Shown: piece after piece, positions 27,367 through 58,427 of the stretch
Numbering within the stretch: position 1 is the first letter of the stretch
How the letters are laid out: each line of letters starts with the position of its first letter
Source: a virus
Direction: 5' to 3' (one strand)
Length of the DNA stretch: 64,000 bases
Virus record (IMG/VR): IMGVR_UViG_3300042261_001186
Location: 62,001-126,000 of that record
Program-made: the position numbers and the translations under genes
The notes under the pieces: generated by a model
The model's input: the letters and a program-made list of their open reading frames with translations, nothing else
What the model was told of the DNA's origin: nothing
Databases searched by the model: none

Positions 27367-27397
27367 AAAAAACCCCCTTAATTGGGGGTTTTTTTAT
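27367..27397. terminator. Bidirectional terminator
   Basis: AACCCCC and GGGGGTT pair around TTAATT, flanked by A- and T-runs. It serves the convergent genes at 26549 and 27394. Confidence 0.85.
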
Positions 27398-28494
27398 TTC
27401 ACCAAATTCTTGAATATCGCTTCTAAAACATTAACAACTATTGAATTTCCTGCCAATTTTATTAATGCACTATCACTCATAGTCCCTTCAACTTTATTAA
27501 AATCACTATCTGTGAACCCCATTAATTTCCAACATTCTCTTGGTATAAGTTGTCTTACTTCACCATTTTCATAAACCTTTATTCTAGATAATGCACCAGT
27601 TGCAGTTATAGTTGGAGATATACTATCAGTATGATAAACCTTATTTTCACTTGCAAAATTTGTATAACCAACTAAATCAAATCCTCTTATACCATTCTTA
27701 GTTTTTTTAGTTTCTATTACACTTGGATAATATTTCTTAAAATCAAAATAATATTTCTTATCAACATTTTTAGACATAATATCACCAATAGTTAAATTAG
27801 TTAATTCATTTTGTTCTGGAATAATATATTCTTGATCATCTATTATAGAAACCATATAAGCTCTTTCTCTATTCTGTGGTATATCAAAATAAGAAGCTTT
27901 CAATTTGAAATCATAATTCCTATATCCTAATTTTGTGAGATTCTCTTTCCAAGTTTCAAATCCTGTTTTGTGTTTATCACTCATTATTGATGCGACATTT
28001 TCCATTAATAAATATTTTGGTAATCTATTTTCAACTTTTAATTCATTAAGTAGTCTATCTACTTGCCACAATAAAGAACTTGATTTACCTTCAAATAAAC
28101 CTCTACCACTTCCTTGGTTACTTAAATCCTGACATGGAAATGAATATGTTAATAAATCATGGTCTGGCATATCAGTTGATTTGAAATCTAATATGGAACC
28201 AAGATTGTTTATGTTTTTATTAGAGACATAAAGTTTCTTTGCTTTTTCAAAATTCATTTTATCAGTATTTGTAGGTGTTTTAGTATCTAAAGAAAATGTA
28301 AATTTTTTAAGATAATCATATATTTCTTCTTTTGAATCTGTAGTTTCTTCATATGAATGATGGACAAGGTTATATGACATTATGGCATTGACATCCCATT
28401 CTGATACTGCAACTACTTCAAAGTCAGCTTTTATATTTTTAAGTGCTTTGTGTTGAGAACCAATACCAGCAAATAATTCAATTACTTTTATCAT
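27394..28494 (-). CDS. C5-cytosine DNA methyltransferase
   Basis: This 366-residue enzyme moves a methyl from S-adenosylmethionine to C5 of cytosine. Motif I is E-L-F-A-G-I-G-S (about residues 6-13), motif IV F-P-C-Q-D-L-S with catalytic Cys near 121, motif VI M-E-N-V near 164-167, motif VIII Q-N-R-E-R-A-Y near 207-213, motif X G-N-S-I-V near the end. The long gap between motifs I and IV holds an extra helical insert. The target site cannot be read. It probably protects phage DNA from restriction. A Vsr-like nuclease at 48.4 kb may be a functional partner. Confidence 0.9.
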   Translation of the reverse strand: MIKVIELFAGIGSQHKALKNIKADFEVVAVSEWDVNAIMSYNLVHHSYEETTDSKEEIYDYLKKFTFSLDTKTPTNTDKMNFEKAKKLYVSNKNINNLGSILDFKSTDMPDHDLLTYSFPCQDLSNQGSGRGLFEGKSSSLLWQVDRLLNELKVENRLPKYLLMENVASIMSDKHKTGFETWKENLTKLGYRNYDFKLKASYFDIPQNRERAYMVSIIDDQEYIIPEQNELTNLTIGDIMSKNVDKKYYFDFKKYYPSVIETKKTKNGIRGFDLVGYTNFASENKVYHTDSISPTITATGALSRIKVYENGEVRQLIPRECWKLMGFTDSDFNKVEGTMSDSALIKLAGNSIVVNVLEAIFKNLVK

Positions 28495-42035: not shown

Positions 42036-42344
42036 ATGACAGATAGAGAAAAAATAGAGGTATTTTTAGCTTATGTTAGGAATAAATTATTGGATAAATA
42101 TCCTAATATAGTAATTAATACAATAATTTTTGAAGATGAAATTACATATGGTTTTACTTTTTTTGATATTGAAAATAAAAGAATGATGGGTCAAAATTAT
42201 GTAGGTCTACATTGGTTATCTTCTCATTGGGATTCTTTAGTAAATCATATGGAAAGGACATTAAATGTTCATTTTTTCAAACCAAAAACAAAACAAGTTT
42301 TCTGTGAAGTTGATCCATTTGGAGAGGAGGAATGGGAATGTTAA
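42036..42344 (+). CDS. Array protein ending DPFGEEEW
   Basis: The 102-residue protein (MTDREKIEVFLAYVRNKLL...) has the helix, K-Y-P-N-I-V-I-N-T strand and second-helix order of the IEW family but ends F-C-E-V-D-P-F-G-E-E-E-W-E-C. So the same fold can carry either tail. The codons for G-E-E-E-W (GGAGAGGAGGAATGG) also provide the ribosome site and ATG of the next gene, an overlap of 13 bases. Confidence 0.75.
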   Translation: MTDREKIEVFLAYVRNKLLDKYPNIVINTIIFEDEITYGFTFFDIENKRMMGQNYVGLHWLSSHWDSLVNHMERTLNVHFFKPKTKQVFCEVDPFGEEEWEC

Positions 42345-42607
42345 CAAAACCTCAAGACATAAAGGATAAATTACAAGGTAATTATCCAAATATTTATTTT
42401 ACATATGATGATATCATGCCAAGTATTACCTGTTGTAAAATTGAAAATACTGAAAAACCAAAAGTACAAAAATTTAAATTGAGACACACTAATAATACTT
42501 ATGATCTTGAATTGTATTATGCCCTTATCGTTAATTACTTGATAGATATAAATTACATTAAAAAATCTGTTCAAGAATATAAAGAGGAGGACATAGAATG
42601 GTTATGA
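42332..42607 (+). CDS. IEW-array protein
   Basis: The 91-residue copy: MGMLTKPQDIKDKLQGNYPN, strands I-Y-F-T-Y-D-D, C-C-K-I-E, V-Q-K-F-K-L, helix (LELYYALIVNYLIDI), tail Y-K-E-E-D-I-E-W-L. It starts within a DPFGEEEW tail and ends with an IEW tail, linking both seam types in one chain. Confidence 0.75.
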   Translation: MGMLTKPQDIKDKLQGNYPNIYFTYDDIMPSITCCKIENTEKPKVQKFKLRHTNNTYDLELYYALIVNYLIDINYIKKSVQEYKEEDIEWL

Positions 42608-43158
42608 GAATCCTCATATTAATTTTATCTTTTCTGTCATTATATACATATGGTCAGAAAAGAATTTTTGTGTTTGGTGACTCACATGTCTTTAGTGGAA
42701 TAGGTCTTTATTTAGGTGAGGATTTGAAAAAACAAAATAATATTTATGAATATTATGGTGTTAGTGGTTCTAGTTTTACCAATAATTTTATGGGTAAGAA
42801 AAAAGAATTACTAAACAGAATAAACAAATTCAAACCAGATATTATTATTTGTTTTATGGGAACTAATGAAATGTACTATAATAAAAGTGGTTATAGTAAT
42901 TTATTAAATAGTGTTAATTTATTTTTAAAGGATATAGATAAGAAGAAACTTATCATAGTTAGTTTACCTTATTATGAATATAAAAGTGCTAAAAATGTAT
43001 CTGAGGGATTAAAAACATTTTCTAAAAAAAATAATATAAAATACATTGATATTTTTAATAAAAAATATTCAGAATTAAACTTATTAAGTGATAAATATCA
43101 TTTCAATCAACAAGGATATAAAAATATATCAGAACATATAAATACTTTATTAAAATGA
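42598..43158 (+). CDS. SGNH/GDSL-type hydrolase with signal peptide
   Basis: Of 186 residues, the first 20 (MVMRILILILSFLSLYTYGQ, or from the Met at 42604) form a signal peptide. Block I is F-V-F-G-D-S-H (nucleophile Ser), block III F-M-G-T-N-E-M, block V D-K-Y-H-F-N (Asp/His). This is the lipase/acyl-esterase fold that removes acyl groups from sugars or lipids. Export suggests action on host envelope or capsule, or preventing superinfection. It is embedded in the array: its start lies in an IEW tail and its stop overlaps the next ATG by 4 bases. Confidence 0.8.
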   Translation: MVMRILILILSFLSLYTYGQKRIFVFGDSHVFSGIGLYLGEDLKKQNNIYEYYGVSGSSFTNNFMGKKKELLNRINKFKPDIIICFMGTNEMYYNKSGYSNLLNSVNLFLKDIDKKKLIIVSLPYYEYKSAKNVSEGLKTFSKKNNIKYIDIFNKKYSELNLLSDKYHFNQQGYKNISEHINTLLK

Positions 43159-43493
43159 CATTAACAGAATTTAGAGATAAACATAGATGTGGACCAGCTT
43201 TCATTATTTATTACCTAGATAGAGATGGTAATCGTGGGGATATGAATCTAAAAACAAGGACAATGATGCTGAGTGAAGGTAACATCAGACACAATCAAGA
43301 TATAATAAGACATATTAGTGAAGATCAAAATTTTGAGCGTTTCTGTGGTGACACTGCAACTGATATATTACTTATTAATGGAGTGATGGATAATCCAGTA
43401 CAATTACCAATTGGGGTTAGACTTAAACCAGTATTTCCTTCTATTGCAGTATTATCAAATGAATATGATGACAAAAACATAGAATGGGTATGA
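43155..43493 (+). CDS. IEW-tail protein, second family (a)
   Basis: 112 residues: M-T-L-T-E-F-R-D-K-H at the start, I-I-Y-Y-L-D-R strand, a helix with F-E-R-F-C-G-D-T-A, then a Pro-rich stretch and tail E-Y-D-D-K-N-I-E-W-V. It belongs with the next two genes (M-T-x-x-[E/V]-F start, Y-Y/Y-R strand, F-x-R-[W/F] near the end of the body). Confidence 0.7.
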   Translation: MTLTEFRDKHRCGPAFIIYYLDRDGNRGDMNLKTRTMMLSEGNIRHNQDIIRHISEDQNFERFCGDTATDILLINGVMDNPVQLPIGVRLKPVFPSIAVLSNEYDDKNIEWV

Positions 43494-43786
43494 CAATAGA
43501 TGTGTTTCGATATAAATATAGTGGTAAACCAATTCCAGCTACAACTATTTCTATTTATTATGAAGTTTATTCCACTGGACCTGGTGGGACTACTGAAGAT
43601 GAAAGATCTTTCAAGTTAACTTACAATGATCTTAGTGAAAAACTGAATGAAACTAAAGAGTATTTAAAGTATATTGAAAACAGTCGACATTTTGTCAGAT
43701 GGAAAACACCTACAAGAGTAATGGACATCCATTCTTTGAAAATTGAAAGAGAAATATATGAAGAAGAAAATATAGAATGGGTATGA
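43484..43786 (+). CDS. IEW-tail protein, second family (b)
   Basis: 100 residues: MGMTIDVFRYKYSGK, I-S-I-Y-Y-E-V-Y-S, a helix with Y-L-K-Y-I-E-N, H-F-V-R-W-K-T-P-T-R-V-M-D-I-H-S-L, tail Y-E-E-E-N-I-E-W-V. The R-W-x-T-x-x-x-V-x-D-I-x-S-L block is shared with copy (c). Overlaps both neighbours by 10 bases. Confidence 0.7.
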   Translation: MGMTIDVFRYKYSGKPIPATTISIYYEVYSTGPGGTTEDERSFKLTYNDLSEKLNETKEYLKYIENSRHFVRWKTPTRVMDIHSLKIEREIYEEENIEWV

Positions 43787-44064
43787 CATTAGGAGAATTC
43801 AAATCAATATATTCTTTGGGAGAGTACATCCATATAGTTTATAGGGAATATAATAATCTTTATCATTATGAAGAAATGAGGACCATAAGAATACCTGTTG
43901 TTGATTTGGATGTCAATCTTAATTATTGGAAAGCAGATTTGAAATATGTTGAGAAAAGAGCATCTTTCAGAAGATGGGAAACCCATAAAACTGTAAATGA
44001 CATATATAGTTTGACTAAAGATAGTTTGGAAATTTACAATGAAGAAAATATAGAATGGGTATAA
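43777..44064 (+). CDS. IEW-tail protein, second family (c)
   Basis: 95 residues: MGMTLGEFKSIYSLGEYIHI, a strand pair, L-K-Y-V-E-K-R-A-S-F-R-R-W-E-T-H-K-T-V-N-D-I-Y-S-L, tail Y-N-E-E-N-I-E-W-V-TAA. No gene starts in its tail: a new promoter and gene follow, so this is the end of this coupled chain. Confidence 0.7.
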   Translation: MGMTLGEFKSIYSLGEYIHIVYREYNNLYHYEEMRTIRIPVVDLDVNLNYWKADLKYVEKRASFRRWETHKTVNDIYSLTKDSLEIYNEENIEWV

Positions 44065-44118: not shown

Positions 44119-44319
44119 ATGGATGAAAAAGGTGGAATAATAGTTAAATCTAGAACGGTGAAACATAGATTGGAAATACCATTTGGTATGACGGTTCATT
44201 ATGTTTATTTAGCCAGTAATTTCATAGATCTTAATGATTCTGAATATAAAAAAGAAAAAGAAGGTAAAAGAATATTTAATGAAGTAGACCCATTTGGGGA
44301 AGAAAATTGGGAGGTTTAA
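44119..44319 (+). CDS. Small protein ending DPFGEENW
   Basis: 66 residues with strands (GGIIVKSRTVKHRLEIPFGM) and a Lys/Glu helix, ending R-I-F-N-E-V-D-P-F-G-E-E-N-W-E-V. It starts the DP-tail part of the array. GGGAGG in the tail codons lies 7 bases before the next ATG (44321). Confidence 0.7.
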   Translation: MDEKGGIIVKSRTVKHRLEIPFGMTVHYVYLASNFIDLNDSEYKKEKEGKRIFNEVDPFGEENWEV

Positions 44320-44320
44320 T

Positions 44321-44719
44321 ATGGCACTCAAATATTTGATAGTAAATAGAAGTAGAGTAAGAAATGTAAGGGGAGAATATATCCTTTATAGGTATACTCT
44401 TCAGAATTACAACAATAAATTAATTAGGTATCATGAGAAAGTTGTTGATCATGATTCATCTAGTTATTTGATTAAACATATTGTTATAACTCAAACATAT
44501 GTAAATAGATTCCAAGGACATATAGACAAAATGGCAAAAATAAAATTTTGGACACCTTGGACATTAAAAAAATATGAAAATGAAATAATAAATTTCACAT
44601 ATTTCGGTCAACTTCAAGAAGTATTAAACATGTTTAAATATTTGGATTATAATGAAGTAAAAGGGCAAAAATTCATACCGGAACTTGACCCATTCGGTGA
44701 AGAAAATTGGGAGGGATAA
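44321..44719 (+). CDS. Array protein ending DPFGEENW
   Basis: 132 residues: basic strands at the start (MALKYLIVNRSRVRNVRGEY), helix (ITQTYVNRFQGHIDKMAKI), K-F-W-T-P-W-T-L-K-K-Y-E-N-E, then Q-K-F-I-P-E-L-D-P-F-G-E-E-N-W-E-G. The W-T-x-x-x-L/Y-K-K/F-Y-E block recurs in the gene at 45082, so these two are relatives. The GGGAGG of the tail lies just before the next ATG. Confidence 0.7.
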   Translation: MALKYLIVNRSRVRNVRGEYILYRYTLQNYNNKLIRYHEKVVDHDSSSYLIKHIVITQTYVNRFQGHIDKMAKIKFWTPWTLKKYENEIINFTYFGQLQEVLNMFKYLDYNEVKGQKFIPELDPFGEENWEG

Positions 44720-44723
44720 AATT

Positions 44724-45098
44724 ATGATGAGACTTAACTTAGAAATGCGACAGAAAATAGGACAACTGCAAGCTGTCTTAAATGATTTGAAAGATTTGCA
44801 AAGCAAATTGGAAGAAAATGTAATTCATTACAAGATTAAAAATATTGAATATGATCAGGTTAATGAACTTATAAATAAAAATATAGAAATTTTAGAAATT
44901 GAAATAAATTTCTTTAGTAATTGTTCATATAAGTATAGTAAAAAAATAGATGATAGAATATCTATGTTTAACCATACTAAAAATGGATTACTTGAAAATT
45001 ATAATTATATGTTTTATATGGAACCTAAAGGTCAAAACATAACTGATGAAGATCCTTTTGGTGAAGAAAATTGGGATTCAGATGATGATAATATTTAA
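44724..45098 (+). CDS. Coiled-coil array protein ending DPFGEENW
   Basis: 124 residues; almost entirely helical with heptads (KIGQLQAVLNDLKDLQSKLE; VNELINKNIEILEIEI). Ends N-I-T-D-E-D-P-F-G-E-E-N-W-D-S-D-D-D-N-I. The start at 44724 is preferred to upstream non-ATG options because GGGAGG lies 10 bases before it. It overlaps the next gene by 17 bases. Confidence 0.7.
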   Translation: MMRLNLEMRQKIGQLQAVLNDLKDLQSKLEENVIHYKIKNIEYDQVNELINKNIEILEIEINFFSNCSYKYSKKIDDRISMFNHTKNGLLENYNYMFYMEPKGQNITDEDPFGEENWDSDDDNI

Positions 45099-45549
45099 CA
45101 TAATACTTGGTAGTGTAATTCTTATTGTTTTTGTTTCTCTTATTTCTCTTTATTTATATTTTAATATGAAAGATAATAAATTTAAGAAATATATAAAATA
45201 TTTTTTTAGAGAAGAAAGATATGTGAATAGTTTGAAACGTACTTTTACTTTAATTAATGAAGATTTAAAAGAAATTGAATTCAAATTAGTAAATGTTCGT
45301 TATGATAAAGATATTATTGTAAAAGTATGGAATTTAGAATTCAGTATAGCTAGGACTCTTAAAGAATTTAATGATGTTGATTTTTGGACTAAAGGAAAAT
45401 ATTATAAGTTTTATGAAAAATTCAAAAAATATGAAAGAGAATTAATAGTAATACGAAAATTAAATGATATTTTAAATGATAACACTCCAAGAGGTCAAAG
45501 ATTTATACCTATTGATCCATTTGGAGAAGAAATTTGGGAAGATGATTAA
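45082..45549 (+). CDS. Membrane-anchored array protein ending DPFGEEIW
   Basis: 155 residues starting M-M-I-I-F-N-I-I-L-G, one membrane span to about residue 24 (VILIVFVSLISLYLYF), then long charged helices with D-V-D-F-W-T-K-G-K-Y-Y-K-F-Y-E-K-F-K-K, and end R-F-I-P-I-D-P-F-G-E-E-I-W-E-D-D. Its ATGATG start sits inside the D-D-D codons of the previous tail. Confidence 0.7.
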   Translation: MMIIFNIILGSVILIVFVSLISLYLYFNMKDNKFKKYIKYFFREERYVNSLKRTFTLINEDLKEIEFKLVNVRYDKDIIVKVWNLEFSIARTLKEFNDVDFWTKGKYYKFYEKFKKYERELIVIRKLNDILNDNTPRGQRFIPIDPFGEEIWEDD

Positions 45550-45814: not shown

Positions 45815-46456
45815 ATGAAAGAGAAAATTAAAATATGTGTAATATCTGATACTCATGGTGAACATGGTGAACTTGTTATTCCACCATGTGATATCATTGT
45901 ACATTGTGGTGATAGTACCTCACTTGGTAAAGAACATAGTGTTAGGGAATTTCTTAAATGGTTTACTGAACTTGAACAATGTAAAAACAAAATTTTCATT
46001 GCAGGTAATCATGATTTCTTTTTTGAAAGGAAGGGTGAATATGCTAGGGGATTGGTGCCAGAAAACATCATTTATCTTGAAGATAAAATGGTTGAAGTTG
46101 AAGGTATAAAATTTTATGGAACTCCTGTTACTCCAGTATTCCATAATTGGGCTTTTAATAAAACTGAAGAACAATTAAAAGATTATTGGAGGGATGTTCC
46201 TGAAGGAATTGATGTTTTGGTCACTCATGGACCACCTTTAGGGATATTGGATGTATCCCCTTGGACAAAGAAGAATTGTGGTTCTACAACCTTGAAAGAG
46301 GAAATCTTTGGAAGAATCAAACCAAAGTATCATTGTTTTGGACATATCCATGATTGTTATGGTATGGAAGAAGTAGATGGTGTAACATTTATTAATGCAT
46401 CAAGTTTGAATGAACAATATGAAGTAGCAAATGAACCTATACTAATAGAAATATAA
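45815..46456 (+). CDS. Calcineurin-type metallophosphoesterase
   Basis: The 213-residue enzyme has every family motif: I-S-D-T-H-G (DxH), H-C-G-D-S (GDx), A-G-N-H-D-F-F (GNHD), V-T-H-G-P-P and F-G-H-I-H (GHxH). Two metal ions at these residues would hydrolyse phosphate esters. It resembles short bacterial phosphoesterases of the YfcE/MPPED type. No tail motif is present, unlike its neighbours. The start at 45815 is 7 bases after the preceding motif ORF. Confidence 0.85.
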   Translation: MKEKIKICVISDTHGEHGELVIPPCDIIVHCGDSTSLGKEHSVREFLKWFTELEQCKNKIFIAGNHDFFFERKGEYARGLVPENIIYLEDKMVEVEGIKFYGTPVTPVFHNWAFNKTEEQLKDYWRDVPEGIDVLVTHGPPLGILDVSPWTKKNCGSTTLKEEIFGRIKPKYHCFGHIHDCYGMEEVDGVTFINASSLNEQYEVANEPILIEI

Positions 46457-46714: not shown

Positions 46715-46972
46715 ATGAAAAGAGTTAAAGAAATAGTCCTTGATTTCAACACCAAAATGCACTTGTTTTTCCCACAAGTAACTAAAACATATATTGGTGG
46801 TAGGAAATTATTGGTGGAAAATTTATATTTCTCTAATGATGATGATGAATGGGTATCTATAAACAAAAAAGGTGAATTATTTACTTTAGAAGAAGCTAAG
46901 GAATTTCTAAATAATATAGATAAATATTTAGGGAGTAAAAAAGACATAACAATAATATATCATGAATTGTAA
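46715..46972 (+). CDS. Unknown 85-residue array protein
   Basis: MKRVKEIVLDFNTKMHLFFP, then basic-hydrophobic strands (Y-I-G-G-R-K-L-L-V-E-N-L-Y-F) and a helix ending I-D-K-Y-L-G. It overlaps the next gene by 11 bases. It has neither tail motif. Helix-strand-strand-helix like the IEW family. Confidence 0.6.
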   Translation: MKRVKEIVLDFNTKMHLFFPQVTKTYIGGRKLLVENLYFSNDDDEWVSINKKGELFTLEEAKEFLNNIDKYLGSKKDITIIYHEL

Positions 46973-47195
46973 AGTAACTAGGGAACAAGTAGAGGATTTA
47001 AAGAATTTTCATATGGGTATAGATGTAGTTCAAGCTCTTGAAGCACAATTGATTAAGGAGTTAACTGAAAATATTTCAGAAAATATAAGAGTTAGGATTC
47101 AAACCATAAGAAGTTATGATTATCCTGAGTTAAAGAAATACAAACAAGTGTTTAATGAAGTAGATCCTTATGGAGAAGAAATGTGGGAGGAATAA
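46962..47195 (+). CDS. Array protein ending DPYGEEMW
   Basis: 77 residues, two helices (TREQVEDLKNFHMGIDVVQA; LIKELTENISENIRVRIQTI) and end K-Y-K-Q-V-F-N-E-V-D-P-Y-G-E-E-M-W-E-E. The K-Y-K-Q-V-F-[N/S]-E-V-D-P block is the same as in the GC-rich gene at 47436, although codon choice differs. GGGAGGA sits 8 bases before the next ATG. Confidence 0.7.
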   Translation: MNCKVTREQVEDLKNFHMGIDVVQALEAQLIKELTENISENIRVRIQTIRSYDYPELKKYKQVFNEVDPYGEEMWEE

Positions 47196-47197
47196 TT

Positions 47198-47434
47198 ATG
47201 AAAAATGTTATGATAGTGGAAAACGTAAATCCGACCGGCGAAATCGTATTGAAAGGGACGTTCGTGACTTTCTCAATTAAGAATTCCGGTAGGTTCTATG
47301 ATGTTGAGATGTATAAATCCGCGTTGGCCGAGATATTGGCCAGAAAAGCCGAAAACGAGGAAAAGAAAAAACAGGCTTTCTGCCAGGTGTTCAGCGATGT
47401 GGACCCATACGGGGAAGAAGAATGGGAGGCTTGA
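47198..47434 (+). CDS. Array protein ending DPYGEEEW; start of GC-rich island
   Basis: 78 residues (MKNVMIVENVNPTGEIVLKG..., helix LAEILARKAENEEKKKQ, end V-F-S-D-V-D-P-Y-G-E-E-E-W-E-A). The first 15 codons are AT-rich like upstream; from about 47215 codons become GC-rich (CCGACCGGC, GCGTTGGCC). The base shift inside one gene marks the left edge of an imported or differently evolved block. Confidence 0.7.
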   Translation: MKNVMIVENVNPTGEIVLKGTFVTFSIKNSGRFYDVEMYKSALAEILARKAENEEKKKQAFCQVFSDVDPYGEEEWEA

Positions 47435-47435
47435 C

Positions 47436-47921
47436 ATGGCATTGGTTAAAATGACGAACGCGACGCAGGAATTCAAGGACAACCTGACGGCGCAAGCGAG
47501 GTACCTCGAAATAGAAAACACTTACTTAGGCAGCGTGAATAGGGATTGCTGGGTATGGACTGGCAGGTGCTTCGCGCAGACTCTGAAAGGCAAAAACTTG
47601 AATTTGGATGGACACCGCGATTTCGGATGGATGAATTTCAAGGGATTCTCAAGAATAGACGGGTGCCCGGTTTTCTTAGTGCCTGAGAATTTCGCTGCAG
47701 GGGATAGATATGCTAGGATGATAGAAGTGTTCGGATTGATGACTTTGAACGCGGACGGAACGGCGAAGCATTATCAAAAAAACGATTTGCGGTTCCAATT
47801 GATAGAGCCTGTTTTTGAGGTGAGATATGCGCCCGGATACAAGCCTCTCCCTATGAAAAAATACAAGCAAGTCTTCAGCGAAGTCGATCCTTTCGGCGAA
47901 GAGAACTGGGAGGAGGATTGA
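47436..47921 (+). CDS. Array protein ending DPFGEENW (GC-rich)
   Basis: 161 residues: helix (T-Q-E-F-K-D-N-L-T-A-Q-A-R-Y-L), C-W-V-W-T-G-R-C-F-A-Q-T-L, F-G-W-M-N-F-K-G-F, strand-rich end and K-Y-K-Q-V-F-S-E-V-D-P-F-G-E-E-N-W-E-E-D. Unlike most array genes it has several Trp and Cys. The start lies one base after the previous stop, with GGGAGG just before it. No family recognised. Confidence 0.7.
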   Translation: MALVKMTNATQEFKDNLTAQARYLEIENTYLGSVNRDCWVWTGRCFAQTLKGKNLNLDGHRDFGWMNFKGFSRIDGCPVFLVPENFAAGDRYARMIEVFGLMTLNADGTAKHYQKNDLRFQLIEPVFEVRYAPGYKPLPMKKYKQVFSEVDPFGEENWEED

Positions 47922-48144
47922 TAGACGACAGGGAATACGTGAAAAGGCTGAAGTTTTTCAGGGAGCTGAAAATGACAAAGACAAATGGGCATCTTTCAGC
48001 GACGCAGAAAGGGGCCTGCTTTTGGAAAAAATGAGGGAAGTCTCCGATTATTCCGCGAATTTCAGGAAAAACAGAAAATTTAAAAAACTGCAAAAATATA
48101 AAGAAATAGACCCTTACGGGGAAGAAAACTGGGAGGACGATTGA
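47918..48144 (+). pseudogene. Frameshifted array gene ending DPYGEENW (GC-rich)
   Basis: A TTG at 47918 overlaps the previous stop (TTGA) and opens I-D-D-R-E-Y-V-K-R-L-K-F-F-R-E-L-K. After this, a neighbouring frame gives N-D-K-D-K-W-A-S-F-S-D-A-E-R-G-L, a helix, K-Y-K-E-I-D-P-Y-G-E-E-N-W-E-D-D. One missing A in the AAAA run near 47970 would join them into a 76-residue protein. Deletion or read error are both possible. The tail still abuts the next ATG at 48146. Confidence 0.6.
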
Positions 48145-48145
48145 T

Positions 48146-48379
48146 ATGGGCGGGAGCTTAAGGATTACGACTAAATTCAACAAATATGCGATCGCGGAAT
48201 CAAAAGGCATAGACATGCTGAAAATAATAGAAGACGATTTGATAAGGCAGATGAAAAACTTAGGTTATCACAAATACGAAGTGATTAGGCACGATGATTC
48301 TATCGTCGTTCAATCCTGCACCGGAACAAGGATTTTTTCAGAAGTCGATCCTTTGGGCGAAGAAATATGGGAGGACTGA
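48146..48379 (+). CDS. Array protein ending DPLGEEIW (GC-rich)
   Basis: 77 residues: basic start (MGGSLRITTKFNKYAIAESK), helix (DMLKIIEDDLIRQMKNLGYH), strand pair, end R-I-F-S-E-V-D-P-L-G-E-E-I-W-E-D. The C-terminal GGGAGGA and TGATGG link it to the Vsr gene, whose ATG overlaps this stop by one base. Confidence 0.7.
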   Translation: MGGSLRITTKFNKYAIAESKGIDMLKIIEDDLIRQMKNLGYHKYEVIRHDDSIVVQSCTGTRIFSEVDPLGEEIWED

Positions 48380-48834
48380 TGGCCAAATACGAATTCGAGA
48401 CCACCGACGCGAGAAGGGAAATCATGAAAAAAATAAAAGCCAAGGACACGAAAACGGAAGTGGCTTTCAGGAAAGAATTGTGGAGGCTCGGAATAAGGGG
48501 GTACAGGAAAAACAGCAAGAAAGTCTTCGGAAAGCCGGATCTGTCTTTTTCGAAGAAAAAAATAGCGGTTTTCATAGACGGGGAATTCTGGCACGGATTG
48601 GAATTTGAAAAGACGGCGAAGATAAAATCGAACGCCTCTTATTGGTTGCCCAAAATAGAAAGGAACATCCAACGGGACAAAGAGGTTAACGAAAGATTGA
48701 AAGAAGAAGGTTGGACGGTCTTGAGGTTTCCGGAAAAGAAGAAAACCAAAAAAGACATTATCTCGGCGGCGAACAAAGTGATCGAGGCGCTGGGACAAAA
48801 AATAAAAGACGCAGATGGGATTGTTAAATGTTGA
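48379..48834 (+). CDS. Vsr-like mismatch endonuclease
   Basis: The 151-residue protein follows the very-short-patch repair nuclease plan: T-T-D-A-R-R-E-I-M-K-K-I-K-A-K-D-T at the start, E-V-A-F-R-K-E-L-W-R-L-G, G-K-P-D-L-S-F (catalytic Asp), A-V-F-I-D-G-E-F-W-H-G, Y-W-L-P-K-I-E-R-N-I-Q-R-D, G-W-T-V-L-R-F. Vsr nicks at T:G mismatches made by deamination of 5-methylcytosine. The zinc Cys/His set of E. coli Vsr is not obvious, so a role as a restriction-type nuclease is also possible. The ATG at 48379 (GGGAGGA before it) is chosen over 48367. Confidence 0.75.
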   Translation: MAKYEFETTDARREIMKKIKAKDTKTEVAFRKELWRLGIRGYRKNSKKVFGKPDLSFSKKKIAVFIDGEFWHGLEFEKTAKIKSNASYWLPKIERNIQRDKEVNERLKEEGWTVLRFPEKKKTKKDIISAANKVIEALGQKIKDADGIVKC

Positions 48835-48868
48835 AAAAAAAGAGGAAGATTAATCTTCCTCTTTTTTT
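48834..48868. terminator. Bidirectional terminator at the island's right edge
   Basis: GAGGAAGATT and AATCTTCCTC (48842-48861) form a perfect palindrome with A7 before and T7 after. It ends both the long plus-strand array and the minus-strand DHFR operon, and overlaps the last codons of the DUF1289 gene. Confidence 0.85.
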
Positions 48869-50531: not shown

Positions 50532-50984
50532 ATGAATAATTTGAAAACATACAATAGTTACTTGAATGAAGGTAGGTTAATGGCTCAAAAAGAATATGAT
50601 GAAGTGTTGATAAAGATAATGAATAATATGAAAAAGTTTGTGAATGTTGCTAAAATTGAAGTAACTAAAACTAGTACAGCTAGGTATGATAAGATAAATT
50701 ATTATTATGAATATAACAAAAGTGATTATAAAGAAAGAGCACATATGGATGTTGATCCCTTAGGTGAAGATGATTGGGATGATGACAATGTTAAAAATAG
50801 GACATTGAATTTGAGAGCAAAATATGAAGAAGATGTTGGGTTTTTTCATAAAATAAAAGAATATGATTTTTGGATAAACAATGAAAAGCTTCAAATATCA
50901 ACCTATCTTATCAAGGATTTTATAAACTTATTGAAAAAGGCTAAATCAGATAGTATTAAAAAAAAATTTTTAGAAGATGTATAA
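50532..50984 (+). CDS. Head-peptide/DP-loop family, member 1
   Basis: 150 residues: MNNLKTYNSYLNEGRLM (L-N-E|G), helix (YDEVLIKIMNNMKKFVN), strands, then D-V-D-P-L-G-E-D-D-W-D-D in a loop near residue 75, a strand pair (F-W-I-N-N-E-K-L-Q-I-S) and a closing helix. First of six consecutive paralogues to 53197. The next start overlaps by 8 bases. Confidence 0.75.
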   Translation: MNNLKTYNSYLNEGRLMAQKEYDEVLIKIMNNMKKFVNVAKIEVTKTSTARYDKINYYYEYNKSDYKERAHMDVDPLGEDDWDDDNVKNRTLNLRAKYEEDVGFFHKIKEYDFWINNEKLQISTYLIKDFINLLKKAKSDSIKKKFLEDV

Positions 50985-51540
50985 ATTAAAAACATATGAA
51001 GAATACCAATTAAATGAAGCTAAGTACTTCAATAAACAAATGTATGATCCATTAATCACTAAAATTTGTGACATACTAGAAACAGGTGTCAGGTTGGATA
51101 GGTTAAGGGTGAATAAAGATAGTCAGGGACTCCTGGGCATGAGAGTGTATAATAGAGTTTGTAATGATCATTATCAATATACATACATAAAAAATGATTA
51201 CATTAAAAGGAATCACACAGAAAATGATCCTTATGGTGAAGATGAGGAATTGAATCCTGCAGAAACACTTGTCATAATAGCTAGAAAAGTCACCACTAGA
51301 ATTTGGAAAAGAAAACTTCAGGAGTTTGTGAAATACCCTAGTTATAAGATGAGTATAAATGGTTATGATATCAGAGTTTCAAATTACTTAGTTAAAAGGT
51401 TTATATATATAATGGAGAATGCCAAGAAGATAAAGGAGAGAGAAGATAAGAATTATCAAAAACAAAGAGAAATTGAAGCAAAAATAAGAAGAGAACAAGA
51501 AGACCTTGAAAAAAGGGATAAATGGATGAGTTCAATATGA
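50977..51540 (+). CDS. Head-peptide/DP-loop family, member 2
   Basis: 187 residues: MYKLKTYEEYQLNEAKYF (L-N-E|A), helix (PLITKICDILETGV), strands, E-N-D-P-Y-G-E-D-E-E near residue 84 where the Trp is lost, strands with M-S-I-N-G-Y-D-I-R-V-S, helix, and a long Arg/Glu/Gln helix at the end. The loss of Trp makes this a natural variant for testing the motif. Confidence 0.75.
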   Translation: MYKLKTYEEYQLNEAKYFNKQMYDPLITKICDILETGVRLDRLRVNKDSQGLLGMRVYNRVCNDHYQYTYIKNDYIKRNHTENDPYGEDEELNPAETLVIIARKVTTRIWKRKLQEFVKYPSYKMSINGYDIRVSNYLVKRFIYIMENAKKIKEREDKNYQKQREIEAKIRREQEDLEKRDKWMSSI

Positions 51541-51941
51541 AAAACTTGATAACATATAAACAATACCTCAATGAAGGTTGGTTCAGTGGTAAACATGATG
51601 GTATAGGCAGGAAAATATATCAATATGTCTTTGATAGAGATGATATAGAATATGTTTATAGTGGAGGTGGTGATTATTACACTTTTTATTTAAAACCTAC
51701 TGCTATACAAAACCCAGAGGCTGATCCTTTAGGTGAAGATGATTGGAATGAAAATATAGATAATCATCCTATACGAATTTATGTAAGTGGTGAATATAAA
51801 TTGAGATTAGATGGTGAAAACATAGATGTTTCTTCAGGTATAGTTAAAAAAATATACAAAGAACTCAAAAATAAAGCTAAAAAAATAGCAGACAAGAAAC
51901 TACAAGATAAAATAGATAGAGCAGAAAAATTATTAAGATAA
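51537..51941 (+). CDS. Head-peptide/DP-loop family, member 3
   Basis: 134 residues from the ATG that overlaps the previous stop (ATGA): MKNLITYKQYLNEGWFSGKH. Then I-Y-Q-Y-V-F-D-R-D-D-I-E-Y, Y-Y-T-F-Y-L-K-P, E-A-D-P-L-G-E-D-D-W-N-E, Y-K-L-R-L-D-G-E-N-I-D-V-S and a Lys-rich helix. N-E-G-W-F-S after the cut site is shared with member 4. Confidence 0.75.
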   Translation: MKNLITYKQYLNEGWFSGKHDGIGRKIYQYVFDRDDIEYVYSGGGDYYTFYLKPTAIQNPEADPLGEDDWNENIDNHPIRIYVSGEYKLRLDGENIDVSSGIVKKIYKELKNKAKKIADKKLQDKIDRAEKLLR

Positions 51942-51955
51942 AAAAAAATATTAAT

Positions 51956-52378
51956 ATGAATAATCTAAAGACATATGAAGAAATGGGTTGGTTTTCTAAA
52001 AAACCAAAATTTCTTGTAAAACCAGATGATGATGTTGCAACTAAACTTTTAGATTTTATAGTTAAACATTGTGATGAAATAGATTTACGAAATGATGCTG
52101 GTGATTACAGAATAAAAGTTTTCAGTATAAAACAAAAATCAGAGAATCCAGCAGATGATCCTTTAGGTGAAGATGATTGGGATGAAGAATCAACGGTAAT
52201 TGTAAAATTAGACTCTAGATATGAAAGATTGACTATTGATGATCAACTTCTAGATGTTTCTGTAGACCTTAAACTTAAAATTAATGATGCTTTAGATAAC
52301 ATATTAACATTGAGAGCGAACAAGATAAAACAGGCTAAGATAGACAAAATGCATAATCTTTTAAAAAAATTTGACTAA
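51956..52378 (+). CDS. Head-peptide/DP-loop family, member 4
   Basis: 140 residues: MNNLKTYEEMGWFSKKPKF (here the L-N-E is reduced to E-E-M|G), helix (ATKLLDFIVKHCDEIDL), strands, A-D-D-P-L-G-E-D-D-W-D-E, L-T-I-D-D-Q-L-L-D-V-S, helix, and I-K-Q-A-K-I-D-K-M. K-H-C-D-E-I-D-L is shared with members 5 and 6, so 4-6 are recent duplicates. Confidence 0.75.
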   Translation: MNNLKTYEEMGWFSKKPKFLVKPDDDVATKLLDFIVKHCDEIDLRNDAGDYRIKVFSIKQKSENPADDPLGEDDWDEESTVIVKLDSRYERLTIDDQLLDVSVDLKLKINDALDNILTLRANKIKQAKIDKMHNLLKKFD

Positions 52379-52791
52379 TGATGAAAAATTTGAAAACATA
52401 TGATGAATTATATGAAGGTTGATTTAAGTCAACTCCGAAACCAGATGATGCTGCAGCTGAAAGGCTCCTACAATACATAGTAAATCATTGTGATGAAATA
52501 GATTTGATATCAACACATGGTGGATATCATTACAATTTTGACATAAAAGAGAAAATACATAATGAAGAAGATCAATTAGGTGAAGAAGATTGGGGAGAAG
52601 TTATTCCAGTACATTTTGAAGGTGATAGATGGCTTTCTATTGATGGAGAAACATTGGATTTGTCTAAGAAAATGGGTTGGAAAATAAAAGATGCTTTGAA
52701 AAATCTAGATATATTGAAAAAAAACAAGATAAAACAGAGCAAGATAGATAGGATGGATAATTTAATAAAAAAATTAAATAAACATGAATAA
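52378..52791 (+). pseudogene. Head-peptide/DP-loop family, member 5, with Trp-to-stop change
   Basis: From ATG 52378/52381: M-K-N-L-K-T-Y-D-E-L-Y-E-G, then TGA (52420-52422) exactly where sisters have TGG for G-W-F, then F-K-S-T-P-K-P-D-D and an open frame to 52791 with V-N-H-C-D-E-I-D-L, N-E-E-D-Q-L-G-E-E-D-W-G and I-K-Q-S-K-I-D-R-M. A single G-to-A change explains it. The rest shows no decay, so the mutation is recent, suppressed, or an error. Reinitiation at a later ATG would make a product without head peptide. Confidence 0.65.
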
Positions 52792-53197
52792 TTTAAAGAC
52801 ATATGATGAATTAAATGAAGAACTGTTTTTCAAGAAAAAGAAGAAGGAAGATGATGTATTCGGTCAAAAATTGTTGGATTTCATAGTGAATCATTGTGAT
52901 GATATAGATTTGAAAAAACAAGGACGTTATTACACTTTCATCTTAAGAGCTGACAACAGAAATGAAAATGATCCATTGGGTGAGGAAGATTATGATACTG
53001 ATGTCAAAATAGTATATTGGGATTCAGATAGCACTTTTCATGACACCTTGGAAATTGATGGAGATGAAATAGATTTGTCAAGAGATATGAGGCATAAAAT
53101 ATTAAAAGCCCTTAAAAACCTTGATCAATTGAAGAAAAACAAGATCAAGAGAGGCAAGATGGAGAAAACAGAGAATTTATTGAAAAAATTCGATTAA
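52784..53197 (+). CDS. Head-peptide/DP-loop family, member 6
   Basis: 137 residues: MNNLKTYDELNEELFFKKKK (L-N-E|E), F-I-V-N-H-C-D-D-I-D-L, Y-Y-T-F-I-L-R-A, N-E-N-D-P-L-G-E-E-D-Y-D (Trp replaced by Tyr), L-E-I-D-G-D-E-I-D-L-S, helix, K-R-G-K-M-E-K-T. Starts 8 bases inside the previous gene. Confidence 0.75.
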   Translation: MNNLKTYDELNEELFFKKKKKEDDVFGQKLLDFIVNHCDDIDLKKQGRYYTFILRADNRNENDPLGEEDYDTDVKIVYWDSDSTFHDTLEIDGDEIDLSRDMRHKILKALKNLDQLKKNKIKRGKMEKTENLLKKFD

Positions 53198-55204: not shown

Positions 55205-55906
55205 TTAATCTTTATCTTCCGCTGTAGTTAAGAATGCTCCTATAAATACTACTAATCTTTTATCTATATTTCCAGAAATTGTAATATCATATTCTGGAGT
55301 TAAAGAAATTATTTTCTTCCTTGCAAATACAACTATATTTCCATTTGTGTCATATATTTCAACCGTTTTAGTGAACAAATTCAATTTTTTTGACTTTGCA
55401 ATAACCCTTCCAGTTGCATCCTTTATAGAATAAATATTATATACAGATACCAAGGATTCCAACACCTCTTGTTCCAATGAACCTATCAATGTACCCCTAG
55501 CATCTGATATCTTTATAACAGTGTATAAATTTAAAGGTTTTTGATGTGCCTTTGCTATCAAATTACCATTTGCATCTAAATATTCAAAAGTTTTACCTAT
55601 TGACAAAATTTTCTCATCTATTTTACCTAAATCATTTCCATTAGCATCCTTAATATCCATTACTGTTCCTATCGATATTATTTCCTTTGTTAAAGTAAAT
55701 TTATTTGGTAATTCTGCAGATTTAGAAGTTGGACTCCATGATGATTCTGTGTCAGGTCCAGACCAATTTATGTTTTTAAGAATGCCTTTATTTCCAAGAG
55801 TAATTGCCCCTGCAGCTATACCTAAACCAACTAATCCAGCAGCTAAAGTTTTTTTACCTAACTCTTCATTAAGACTATATTCTTCATATGATTTTAGTTT
55901 ATTCAT
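55205..55906 (-). CDS. LURP-one/scramblase-like repeat protein with head peptide
   Basis: 233 residues from the ATG that overlaps the previous stop: MNKLKSYEEYSLNEELGKKT (L-N-E|E), then a hydrophobic stretch (LAAGLVGLGIAAGAITLG) and a body of repeated hairpins: I-K-D-A-N-G-N-D-L-G-K-I, Y-L-D-A-N-G-N-L-I-A-K-A, I-S-D-A-R-G-T-L-I-G, I-K-D-A-T-G-R-V-I-A-K-S, I-Y-D-T-N-G-N-I-V-V-F-A. This x-x-D-x-x-G-x-x-[I/V]-[A/G] series is typical of Tubby-like LURP-one/scramblase domains. Membrane binding is plausible. Confidence 0.65.
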   Translation of the reverse strand: MNKLKSYEEYSLNEELGKKTLAAGLVGLGIAAGAITLGNKGILKNINWSGPDTESSWSPTSKSAELPNKFTLTKEIISIGTVMDIKDANGNDLGKIDEKILSIGKTFEYLDANGNLIAKAHQKPLNLYTVIKISDARGTLIGSLEQEVLESLVSVYNIYSIKDATGRVIAKSKKLNLFTKTVEIYDTNGNIVVFARKKIISLTPEYDITISGNIDKRLVVFIGAFLTTAEDKD

Positions 55907-56801
55907 TTCCATATATTTCATTTTGCATTGCTTCCATAGCCATAACTACAGCAGCAAAAGTTCCTTCTATAACATAACCATAAAGACTTTCCACACCTAC
56001 TTCTTCATCATAGAAATCATTATCTGCCAATATCTGATCTACATCATTTTGGTATTTCAAATAAAAATCAAAAATGTCAGCATCTTCAATAAAACCTTCA
56101 AGTACTTCTTCTGAATCCTCATTAACATAACTATCTATGAAATCCTGTACTTTTGTAATATCACCATCTAATTGTTTATCTAATAACTCTAATATACCTC
56201 TTTTAAGAGATGTATAAGTGTTGGATACCTTATCCCTTAACTCATCAGTGATAGCTTCATTAACAGAAGGATTGACCTGTTTAAATGACTTCAGGCCTTC
56301 ATTTGAATTCATTATTTCAATGAGACTTTTTCTTAAATCCATAGTTTTGAAAGTCTTTTTAGGTTTTTCTTCACCATCATTCCAATCTTCTTCACCAAAA
56401 GGATCTCTTTCATCATAAACTCTTTGAGATTGTGATATAAGACCATTGAATGATTTGACTTTTTCATCCATTTGTTTAATATTAACCATAATCTCATAAT
56501 TCTTTATTATGTCATATAAATTCTCTATATCTTCATAAACACTATCTATTATTTGATCATTACCTTCTTGATCAGTAACTTTCTTTTTTACTGCATTAAT
56601 AGTGTAGTTTTTCTTACCTTCTCTATTAAAATTCAATTTGAAACCAGTTTTGGTTTCTTTAAAAGAATCAAAATAATCACTTTTTATAACATCATGGTTA
56701 TAAACATAATCACATACTTCCTTAGCTAGACTAAGTAGATCACCAAATGAATGATGATTAGTATAATGTTGTTCGAAAAATTTTGAAAAATTTAGTGTCA
56801 T
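55899..56801 (-). CDS. 300-residue head-peptide protein with DPFGEEDW motif
   Basis: Start MTLNFSKFFEQHYTNHH. Strand-helix domain to about residue 125, then E-R-D-P-F-G-E-E-D-W-N-D-G-E-E near 132, a Lys-rich linker, S-N-E-G-L-K-S-F and S-V-N-E-A (both possible cut sites) and a helical acidic C-domain. The last helix is Ala/Met-rich (GTFAAVVMAMEAMQNEIY). Two N-E|[G/A] sites near residues 167 and 181 could split the protein in two. Confidence 0.7.
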   Translation of the reverse strand: MTLNFSKFFEQHYTNHHSFGDLLSLAKEVCDYVYNHDVIKSDYFDSFKETKTGFKLNFNREGKKNYTINAVKKKVTDQEGNDQIIDSVYEDIENLYDIIKNYEIMVNIKQMDEKVKSFNGLISQSQRVYDERDPFGEEDWNDGEEKPKKTFKTMDLRKSLIEIMNSNEGLKSFKQVNPSVNEAITDELRDKVSNTYTSLKRGILELLDKQLDGDITKVQDFIDSYVNEDSEEVLEGFIEDADIFDFYLKYQNDVDQILADNDFYDEEVGVESLYGYVIEGTFAAVVMAMEAMQNEIYGNE

Positions 56802-56806
56802 ACAAC

Positions 56807-56817
56807 TATATATTATA
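56807..56817 (-). promoter_or_regulatory. Late-type promoter box
   Basis: TATAATATATA on the minus strand, 5 bases before the ATG at 56801. Confidence 0.5.
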
Positions 56818-56831
56818 TTTTAATATTCATT

Positions 56832-57857
56832 TTATTTAAACACTGAAGCTTTTGTATCCCATCTTGTATATAATTCACAATCACTTCTTAATATTAAATA
56901 TCTAATTTCACCAACAGAGTGTTCTGCCATACAATCGCGATCAACCACAATAGATAAATTACCTAATTGGAATTTAGGATAACTAGTATTCATACTTTTA
57001 CCATTTTCCATACAATACATTTCTATATCATCTACAAATTTATCAGATACTTTATTTCCTTTTATCCATCTACTTATTTCATTATCATCTTTACCAGACC
57101 ATAAAACTCTAAATGTTGCTTGATCAATACCTAATTCATGTAGTCTATTAACTATATCTTCTGGTGAATGTTTTTCATAACCTGATACTAAATTAAGTGA
57201 TAATCTAAGTAAAAATCCTTTTGATTTTATTCTATGACACAAATCTAACATATTAAACCTAACATTTTTATGCATTTGTATTATACTTGCATTTACATCA
57301 TCATCAAATATATCTGATACTGAAAGTGATATAAGGTAAACACCTACTTCATTTTTTAAAAAATCAAGATTAGCATCATTAAGCATAACACCAGATGTTT
57401 GTATTTCTAATTTAAAAGGATTTTCTAATCTCCTATTAAATTCTCCTATCATTCTAAGAAATGGTTTGTTTTGTATAGGTTCACCTGTACCTGTGAGAAT
57501 TGCATAAGTACAACCCATTTTACTAACTCTTTCAAATTTTTTGAAATATTCTTCTTTGAACATTTCTTCTTTAGAAAGATCTGAATATTCGTCTTTTAAT
57601 TGAGATATTTTAGAAACACAGAATTTACATGAATTAACACAACCATGAGTTGGAACTAATATTGACATGGATCTTACATCAACATTATATCTAGGGGCTT
57701 CTCTAACACCAACTCTATTTTTAGCTCTACGCATAGGTTGTTCTTCCATTTCTACACCTTCAGATATATTCCTAACTTTTATCATATTAAGATAATTATC
57801 TAGACAATAAGGACATATGGTGTTTTTATTAACATATTCATTATATTTATAAATCAT
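56832..57857 (-). CDS. Radical SAM enzyme
   Basis: 341 residues. C73-x3-C77-x2-C80 (G-C-V-N-S-C-K-F-C) is the iron-sulfur motif that splits S-adenosylmethionine into a radical. G-T-G-E-P follows near residue 124 as the SAM-binding GGE-type motif, then strands and helices of a partial TIM barrel (L-E-I-Q-T-S-G, Y-L-I-S-L-S-V-S). The N-terminus carries I-C-P-Y-C and the C-terminus has single Cys residues that may bind an extra cluster. Substrate unknown; RNA/base modification or peptide modification are options. Ungrouped with any clear partner gene. Confidence 0.85.
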   Translation of the reverse strand: MIYKYNEYVNKNTICPYCLDNYLNMIKVRNISEGVEMEEQPMRRAKNRVGVREAPRYNVDVRSMSILVPTHGCVNSCKFCVSKISQLKDEYSDLSKEEMFKEEYFKKFERVSKMGCTYAILTGTGEPIQNKPFLRMIGEFNRRLENPFKLEIQTSGVMLNDANLDFLKNEVGVYLISLSVSDIFDDDVNASIIQMHKNVRFNMLDLCHRIKSKGFLLRLSLNLVSGYEKHSPEDIVNRLHELGIDQATFRVLWSGKDDNEISRWIKGNKVSDKFVDDIEMYCMENGKSMNTSYPKFQLGNLSIVVDRDCMAEHSVGEIRYLILRSDCELYTRWDTKASVFK

Positions 57858-57911
57858 GAAATAATGTTTTTTTATTTTTATATATATATATTAAAAAATA
57901 TTTCTATTAAA

Positions 57912-58427
57912 ATGAATAACTTAAAAAACTATGATGAGTACCTAAATGAAGGAAAGTTTAAAAATCTTGCATTAGCTGCAGGATTAGCTACAACTATGGG
58001 TTTAGCAAGTTGTTGTGGTGGTGGGGATCATTTGGCTTATGATGTCACCAAAAATCAACCTATAGAGATGTCAGATAGGGAAAATACAACTATATATGGA
58101 AAAATACTAAGTATAAGAGATGAACACATATCTAAATATACCCATTATGCAGTTGTTTTGATAAAAGGTAAAGATGGAATAACTTACAAAGTTGTTCTTG
58201 ATGATGCTAGGAAATTTTGGGGCTGGAATGAATGGCCATTAAAAAAAGGTGATGCTGTAGCCATAGTTGTGTTGAATGGTGCTGGTTACATAAAATTCTC
58301 AGATAAAAAAGGTAAAGAAGGTGAATATTTTCCTTTATTAACAGATGTTTGGGGTTGTGTTGAAAATGATGCTGAGAAACAATACCAAGAATTACCAAAA
58401 GAAACAAAAACCAAAGACCAATGGTAA
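57912..58427 (+). CDS. Head-peptide protein with lipobox-like signal
   Basis: 171 residues: MNNLKNYDEYLNEGKFKNLA, so L-N-E|G, directly followed by a basic and hydrophobic segment (FKNLALAAGLATTMGLAS) and C-C-G-G-G, which reads like a lipoprotein signal with lipobox G-L-A-S|C. The body is strand-rich (T-I-Y-G-K-I-L-S-I, A-V-V-L-I-K-G-K). One reading: the head protease removes the first 13 residues in the virion, exposing an export signal after injection. The ATG at 57912 is preferred as the head peptide begins there. Confidence 0.65.
   Translation: MNNLKNYDEYLNEGKFKNLALAAGLATTMGLASCCGGGDHLAYDVTKNQPIEMSDRENTTIYGKILSIRDEHISKYTHYAVVLIKGKDGITYKVVLDDARKFWGWNEWPLKKGDAVAIVVLNGAGYIKFSDKKGKEGEYFPLLTDVWGCVENDAEKQYQELPKETKTKDQW

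Follow-up and report, generated by a model that had tools for sequence, protein, structure and literature searches.

The locus analysed here is a block of five genes with foreign codons that closes an array of small genes, many of which end in a tail (or tag) of the form DP[YFL]GEE.W. It lies in a 64,000-nucleotide window, positions 62001-126000 of IMG/VR virus record G000 (130,397 bases), part of a very AT-rich giant-phage genome. This record and most of its relatives are fragments, and the island is known from one assembly, G000. The features are collected in Table 1.

Table 1. Features of the island, its flanks and the resident methylase (window coordinates unless another record is named).
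Feature	Position	Strand	Description	Basis
Foreign-codon island	47213-48817		Block of foreign codon usage; third-position GC about 0.54	GC segmentation, best codon log-odds segment, leave-one-out codon test
P1	47198-47434	+	78 aa, tail SDVDPYGEEEWEA; resembles N-terminal segment of prohead protease	HMM
P2	47436-47921	+	161 aa, major-capsid-protein fragment, tail SEVDPFGEENWEED	MCP HMM, homologues, tree
P4	47918-48144	+	Tail KEIDPYGEENWEDD; TTG start overlapping P2 stop	Frameshifted near 47970
P5	48146-48379	+	77 aa, tail SEVDPLGEEIWED	Possible distant relative of 46962 gene
Vsr-type endonuclease	48379-48834	+	151 aa, no DP tail	PF03852, TIGR00632, foreign codons
Intrinsic terminator closing the array	48835-48868		Perfect 17+17 nt palindrome with T run	-18.1 kcal/mol, z -5.2
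Native neighbour (46962 gene)	46962-47195	+	AT-rich, MCP fragment, tail NEVDPYGEEMWEE	MCP HMM E 8.3e-9, tail masked
Native part of the same array	44119-45549	+	Four DP-tailed genes (44119, about 44321, about 44732, about 45067)	Sequence
C5-cytosine DNA methylase	27394-28494 (G000:89400-90491)	-	Native codons	PF00145 E 2.6e-54

The composition change at the island is real and sharp. Maximum-likelihood segmentation gave a GC content of 0.446 in 47231-48796 against 0.272 elsewhere in the window (log-likelihood gain 105), and the GC-richest 1600-base stretch outside the island reached 0.321. Third-position GC was about 0.53 in the island, 0.136 in native genes and 0.20 in the capsid gene; a preference for GCG, ACG and CCG was present in the island and absent from the capsid gene, and raised third-position GC was not found in the other GC-rich genome stretches (26-31 kb). 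The codon shift sets in within the first codons of the 47198 gene, and native usage resumes where the last gene of the block stops, at 48834. In a leave-one-out test, each of the five island genes, Vsr included, fitted a codon table derived from its four companions better than the native one, by 34 to 105 log units, and none of the 125 native genes preferred the island table. The block is foreign in composition, uniform across its length, and forms one unit.

These results bear out the preliminary description, made from the letters of the window, in placing an abrupt change of base composition and codon choice inside the 47198 gene and its reversal at 48834. Its statement that the four DP tails of the island are spelled with GTC, TTC, GGC, GAG and AAC was partly right: the four tails exist (P1, P2, P4 and P5), the spelling is exact for the P2 tail only, and the other three mix codons, with Glu mostly still GAA. 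The five proteins that it counted correspond to five genes, with the corrections that the fifth, Vsr, carries no tail and that P4 is split by a frameshift yet is one gene.

At the left edge, the island adjoins the tail repeat of the native 46962 gene (47157-47190), and the tail DNA of this neighbour and of the island genes is about 75% identical over 28-44 nt. Within the tag array, a metallophosphoesterase gene (PF00149, window 45815-46456, + strand) has no DP tail. Upstream, at window 42332-44064 (+ strand), neighbouring genes end not in the DP tail but in another one that they share, (E/D)xxNIEWV or EEDIEWL; two of the genes, 43484 and 43777, are paralogues.

With its tail masked, P1 matched an HMM of 11 protease relatives modestly, at E values of 2e-4 to 3e-4, and the next-best open reading frame of the window scored 0.016. 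The match covers only positions 20-66 of 811, so that P1 does not contain a complete prohead protease S77 domain. P2, with its tail masked, matched an HMM of 11 gp23-like major capsid proteins (MCPs) at E 4.6e-10, which establishes homology; it covers just about 80-190 of some 600 residues and is not a full-length capsid protein. The parent MCP of this genome is itself gp23-like (PF07068, E 3.5e-26), and P2 aligns with residues about 143-230 of this parent; it differs from T4 gp23 in lacking the rest of the protein, in an internal deletion found family-wide and in ending in the tag. Judged by these alignments, P2 is a derived fragment of the major capsid protein and not an MCP. An AlphaFold model of P2 (pLDDT 71, moderate confidence) had no Foldseek fold match in PDB or BFVD.

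P4 begins in one frame as LIDDREYVKRLKFFRELK and carries on in another as NDKDKWASFSDAERG. Both segments are homologous to LR756501 552104-552427 (E 8.6e-11) and to genes of two IMG/VR contigs, G005 and G002. Since these relatives have a single intact gene that aligns with both parts, P4 is read as one gene. The frameshift adjoins an A run and may reflect decay or a sequencing error. An HMM search for a parent protein of P4 found none. P5 matched no segment HMM and had no clear relative, and is listed as an orphan; its residues 20-77 are 36% identical to the product of the 46962 gene, in part due to the tail. An assignment of P5 as a capsid fragment, made by eye, was unsupported in the HMM search.

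The fifth gene encodes a protein that matches the Vsr very-short-patch endonuclease family over its full length as a single domain, above both curated cutoffs (TIGR00632, 6.2e-38, 129.7 bits against 97.85; PF03852, 1.7e-24, 85.9 bits against 27). In a collection with one genome per species, its closest relatives are bacterial, mostly Bacteroidota, and about 50-60% identical, and no Vsr was found in any of the 21 other records searched, LR756501 included. The same genome encodes a C5-cytosine methylase, a gene not found in LR756501, and the Vsr endonuclease would probably repair T:G mismatches left by this resident methylase. It differs from known Vsr systems in being phage-borne, in lying inside a foreign-codon block and in not adjoining the methylase gene.

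The tag system extends well beyond this genome, as the preliminary description had predicted for other phages. LR756501 (735 kb) carries 59 exact tag sites under one strict pattern and 103 under a relaxed pattern, and about 20 IMG/VR contigs also carry the tag; among 50,697 phage records in INPHARED, tag-peptide matches occurred only in LR756501 and its twin LR756503. A full-text literature search, limited in extent, found no paper naming DPYGEE or DPFGEE. LR756501 resembles the present genome in its DPYGEE.W tags, in its arrays with P2 and P4, and in the identity of its MCP (83%), protease (79%) and portal (88%); it differs in a GC content of 0.322, in having only DPY tags, and in lacking both Vsr and the C5-methylase. 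The third residue of the tag is Y in all 103 LR756501 sites, whereas the island has Y2/L1/F1 and this genome Y20/L16/F10. Phages larger than 634 kb, all of the Mahaphage clade, have predicted hosts in the Bacteroidetes (PMC7162821).

Homologues of P2 were found in LR756501, G005, G017 and G010. In LR756501 and G005, P2 and P4 are adjacent and stand last in the array, matching the island apart from P5 and Vsr, and in G010 P2 likewise stands last. No second copy of P2 or P4 was found within the window. The island thus occupies the usual 3' end of the array with foreign DNA, and it more probably took the place of a native end than inserted at random. According to the preliminary description, recent import would be unlikely if close relatives carried the same island and no other phage had similar genes; this is not the situation found, as the relatives' P2 and P4 are AT-rich in spelling and come without Vsr.

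The tail has a role in DNA as well as in protein. The protein motif DP[YFL]GEE.W is conserved and its codons are variable, and the string TGG-GAG-G in the tail DNA supplies the next gene with a Shine-Dalgarno sequence. The Glu after Trp was GAG in 28 of 54 terminal tags versus 6 of 56 internal tags, and a Shine-Dalgarno-like string was present in 28 of the 69 tails that have an ATG nearby versus 2 of the 54 that have none (p = 1e-6). GAG after Trp is thus not confined to the island: it is also seen in native tails that precede a start codon, because TGGGAGG acts there as a Shine-Dalgarno sequence. Joins at tails would keep both the reading frame and the translation signal, and so may account for the seamless fit of the block into the array. 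In the island the tag is kept as protein with different DNA, which argues for selection on the peptide.

Once the tails had been masked, matches to head and tail proteins were found for several array genes. Among the tagged genes of LR756501 and the IMG/VR relatives, matches reached 4e-21 and 5e-23 for the MCP, 1.6e-30 for the protease and 6e-22 for the portal, the last with its pieces in shuffled order; a further match, at 5e-15, was to a probable tail sheath, so called by sequence resemblance and without a Pfam hit. Among the small proteins of LR756501, 7 of 73 with a tag and 10 of 790 without one match any of the four parents (Fisher p = 2e-4). In the tree the P2 genes group together (support 99/99), separate from every MCP, and a single origin of the fragment, predating the divergence of the donor from these phages, is therefore the simplest account. 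For nine array genes, comparison of LR756501 with G005 gave a dN/dS of 0.06-0.28; these genes are under purifying selection, as maintained proteins and not debris. Island P2 is 34% identical to its LR756501 counterpart, against 83% for the MCP of the same genomes. By these comparisons, the phage's own genes for the capsid and the head protease are the source of some tagged genes, which are conserved pieces of them.

Codon usage points to the origin of the block. AGR (AGA/AGG) makes up 0.91 of Arg codons and ATA 0.61 of Ile codons in the island. Tagged phages range over 0.86-0.93 for AGR (83% in one shorter stretch) and 0.40-0.56 for ATA; in ten sampled bacterial contigs that carry Vsr, AGR makes up 0.25-0.73 and ATA 0.08-0.49. 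Since the island shares this bias, and its tags vary among Y, F and L as in this genome, it probably came from a phage of the same sublineage with a higher GC content. When tag patterns that accepted every codon were run against IMG/VR, INPHARED and 395 cellular genomes of the phylum of G021, a Prolixibacteraceae MAG, no GC-rich genome proved to carry recurrent tags; in the last set no tag was found. Recurrent tags occurred only in contigs of GC 0.19-0.36. Five GC-rich contigs (L191/L209, L201/L216 and L229) matched the tag once each, and these matches were judged chance, about a dozen chance matches being expected for the looser pattern by our own estimate. The import from a related GC-richer phage that the preliminary description proposed thus has partial support: it agrees with the foreign, uniform composition of the block as a unit and with the tailed P2 and P4 of relatives at the same array end. 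The search that it recommended, of GC-rich phages for the tails, returned no donor lineage of matching composition.

We think it fairly probable that the island, as the 3' terminus of a DP-tail array, arrived in a single block from a GC-richer, unsampled member of the same phage sublineage, and that the tag docks small proteins for head assembly. The left seam would lie at the tail-encoding repeat and the right seam at the terminator. Recombination would have run through the 28-44 nt tail repeats. DP[YFL]GEE.W would serve as a docking motif that takes small proteins, pieces of MCP, protease, portal and sheath among them, to the head-assembly pathway, either the interior or the assembly core. 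T4 has capsid-targeting sequences and internal proteins, and many proteins with an internal tag likewise begin with KxFxxF/Y..E-like N-termini; the tag differs in being a separate 8-residue motif, often C-terminal. Such capsid-targeting-like N-termini were present in 23 of 48 internal-motif proteins versus 161 of 892 others (p = 5e-6). The proteins with a terminal tag showed no excess (7 of 40), which weakens the head-assembly reading. The presence of head-protein fragments among untagged small proteins as well (the 10 of 790 noted above, beside 7 of 73 tagged) also counts against this explanation, and the frameshift in P4 means that the block may be decaying. Further points against it are that the scans yielded no GC-rich donor, that P5 lacks a clear relative and that the P2 model matched no known fold.

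For the role of the tag, we favour head assembly and place a decoy function second. The tagged capsid, protease, portal and sheath fragments could be decoys or poisons that compete with rival phages' full-length proteins at assembly, or that occupy host immune sensors of late phage proteins, the island then being an exchanged arms-race module. We regard this as rather unlikely. It would account for the derivation of fragments from MCP, protease/scaffold, portal and sheath, for the movement of the block between genomes, and for a divergence far beyond that of the parents (P2 34%, MCP 83%) that nevertheless goes with purifying selection in close relatives; most tagged proteins, however, have no recognisable parent, and the tag is also internal to large proteins with capsid-targeting-like N-termini. 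The possibility that the island is a metagenomic assembly chimera, with the contig of a GC-richer relative joined at conserved tail repeats, is improbable. The left edge does lie at such a repeat, about 75% identical between native neighbour and island, and P4 is frameshifted, but a chimera needs two independent misjoins, the right edge has no tail repeat, assemblers are rarely misled by 28-44 nt repeats at 75% identity, and the block sits at the array end where relatives hold P2 and P4.

A bacterial origin of the entire block, beyond Vsr alone, with tails that arose after arrival, seems very improbable: the bacterial relatives of Vsr invite it, yet the tails themselves are in foreign codons, the orthologues of P2 and P4 are phage genes, the Arg and Ile codon bias is phage-like and unlike that of most sampled bacteria, and the tag is absent from the 395 genomes of G021's bacterial phylum. 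We give hardly any credence to a native island whose codons reflect selection for high expression. Capsid genes here are above average in GC, as that reading would have it, but the third-position GC of the capsid gene, at 0.20 against about 0.53 in the island, refutes it, and the capsid gene also lacks the GCG/ACG/CCG preference.

The island is a natural codon-shuffled control for the tag, and it suggests that the tag system functions across phage genomes that differ in base composition. Block exchange among phages is ordinary; the exchanged content here is unusual, consisting of genes for capsid and protease pieces that each carry the same 8-residue tag, and the tag also provides the ribosome-binding site of the following gene. 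A broader proposal is offered tentatively, and may well prove wrong: Mahaphage-type giant phages would run a tag system with the motif on up to a tenth of their proteins, in which rearranged parts of their own head and tail proteins make up arrays of small tagged genes; these arrays would be kept under selection, traded among phages as blocks, and act as assembly competitors or immune decoys.

Several related genes were observed outside the array. Proteins encoded at window 50532-53197 and 55899-56801 carry an internal DPLGEDDW/DPFGEEDW motif, and many have capsid-targeting-like N-termini, MNNLKTY- or similar. At G000 55710-58181 (- strand), a prohead protease is fused to a long scaffold-like run of YxEYxAE-type repeats, and a tagged LR756501 protein (619760-620383) bears repeats of the same type. 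LR756501 also encodes two untagged small MCP fragments, L085 and L063 (276342-276932 and 542326-542892; E about 1e-22 and 3e-26), and an apparent mosaic of 456 aa (497197-498567, - strand) that combines a DNA-polymerase-like stretch, recognised by eye, with a DP tag, a stretch resembling the sheath N-terminus and an MCP stretch.
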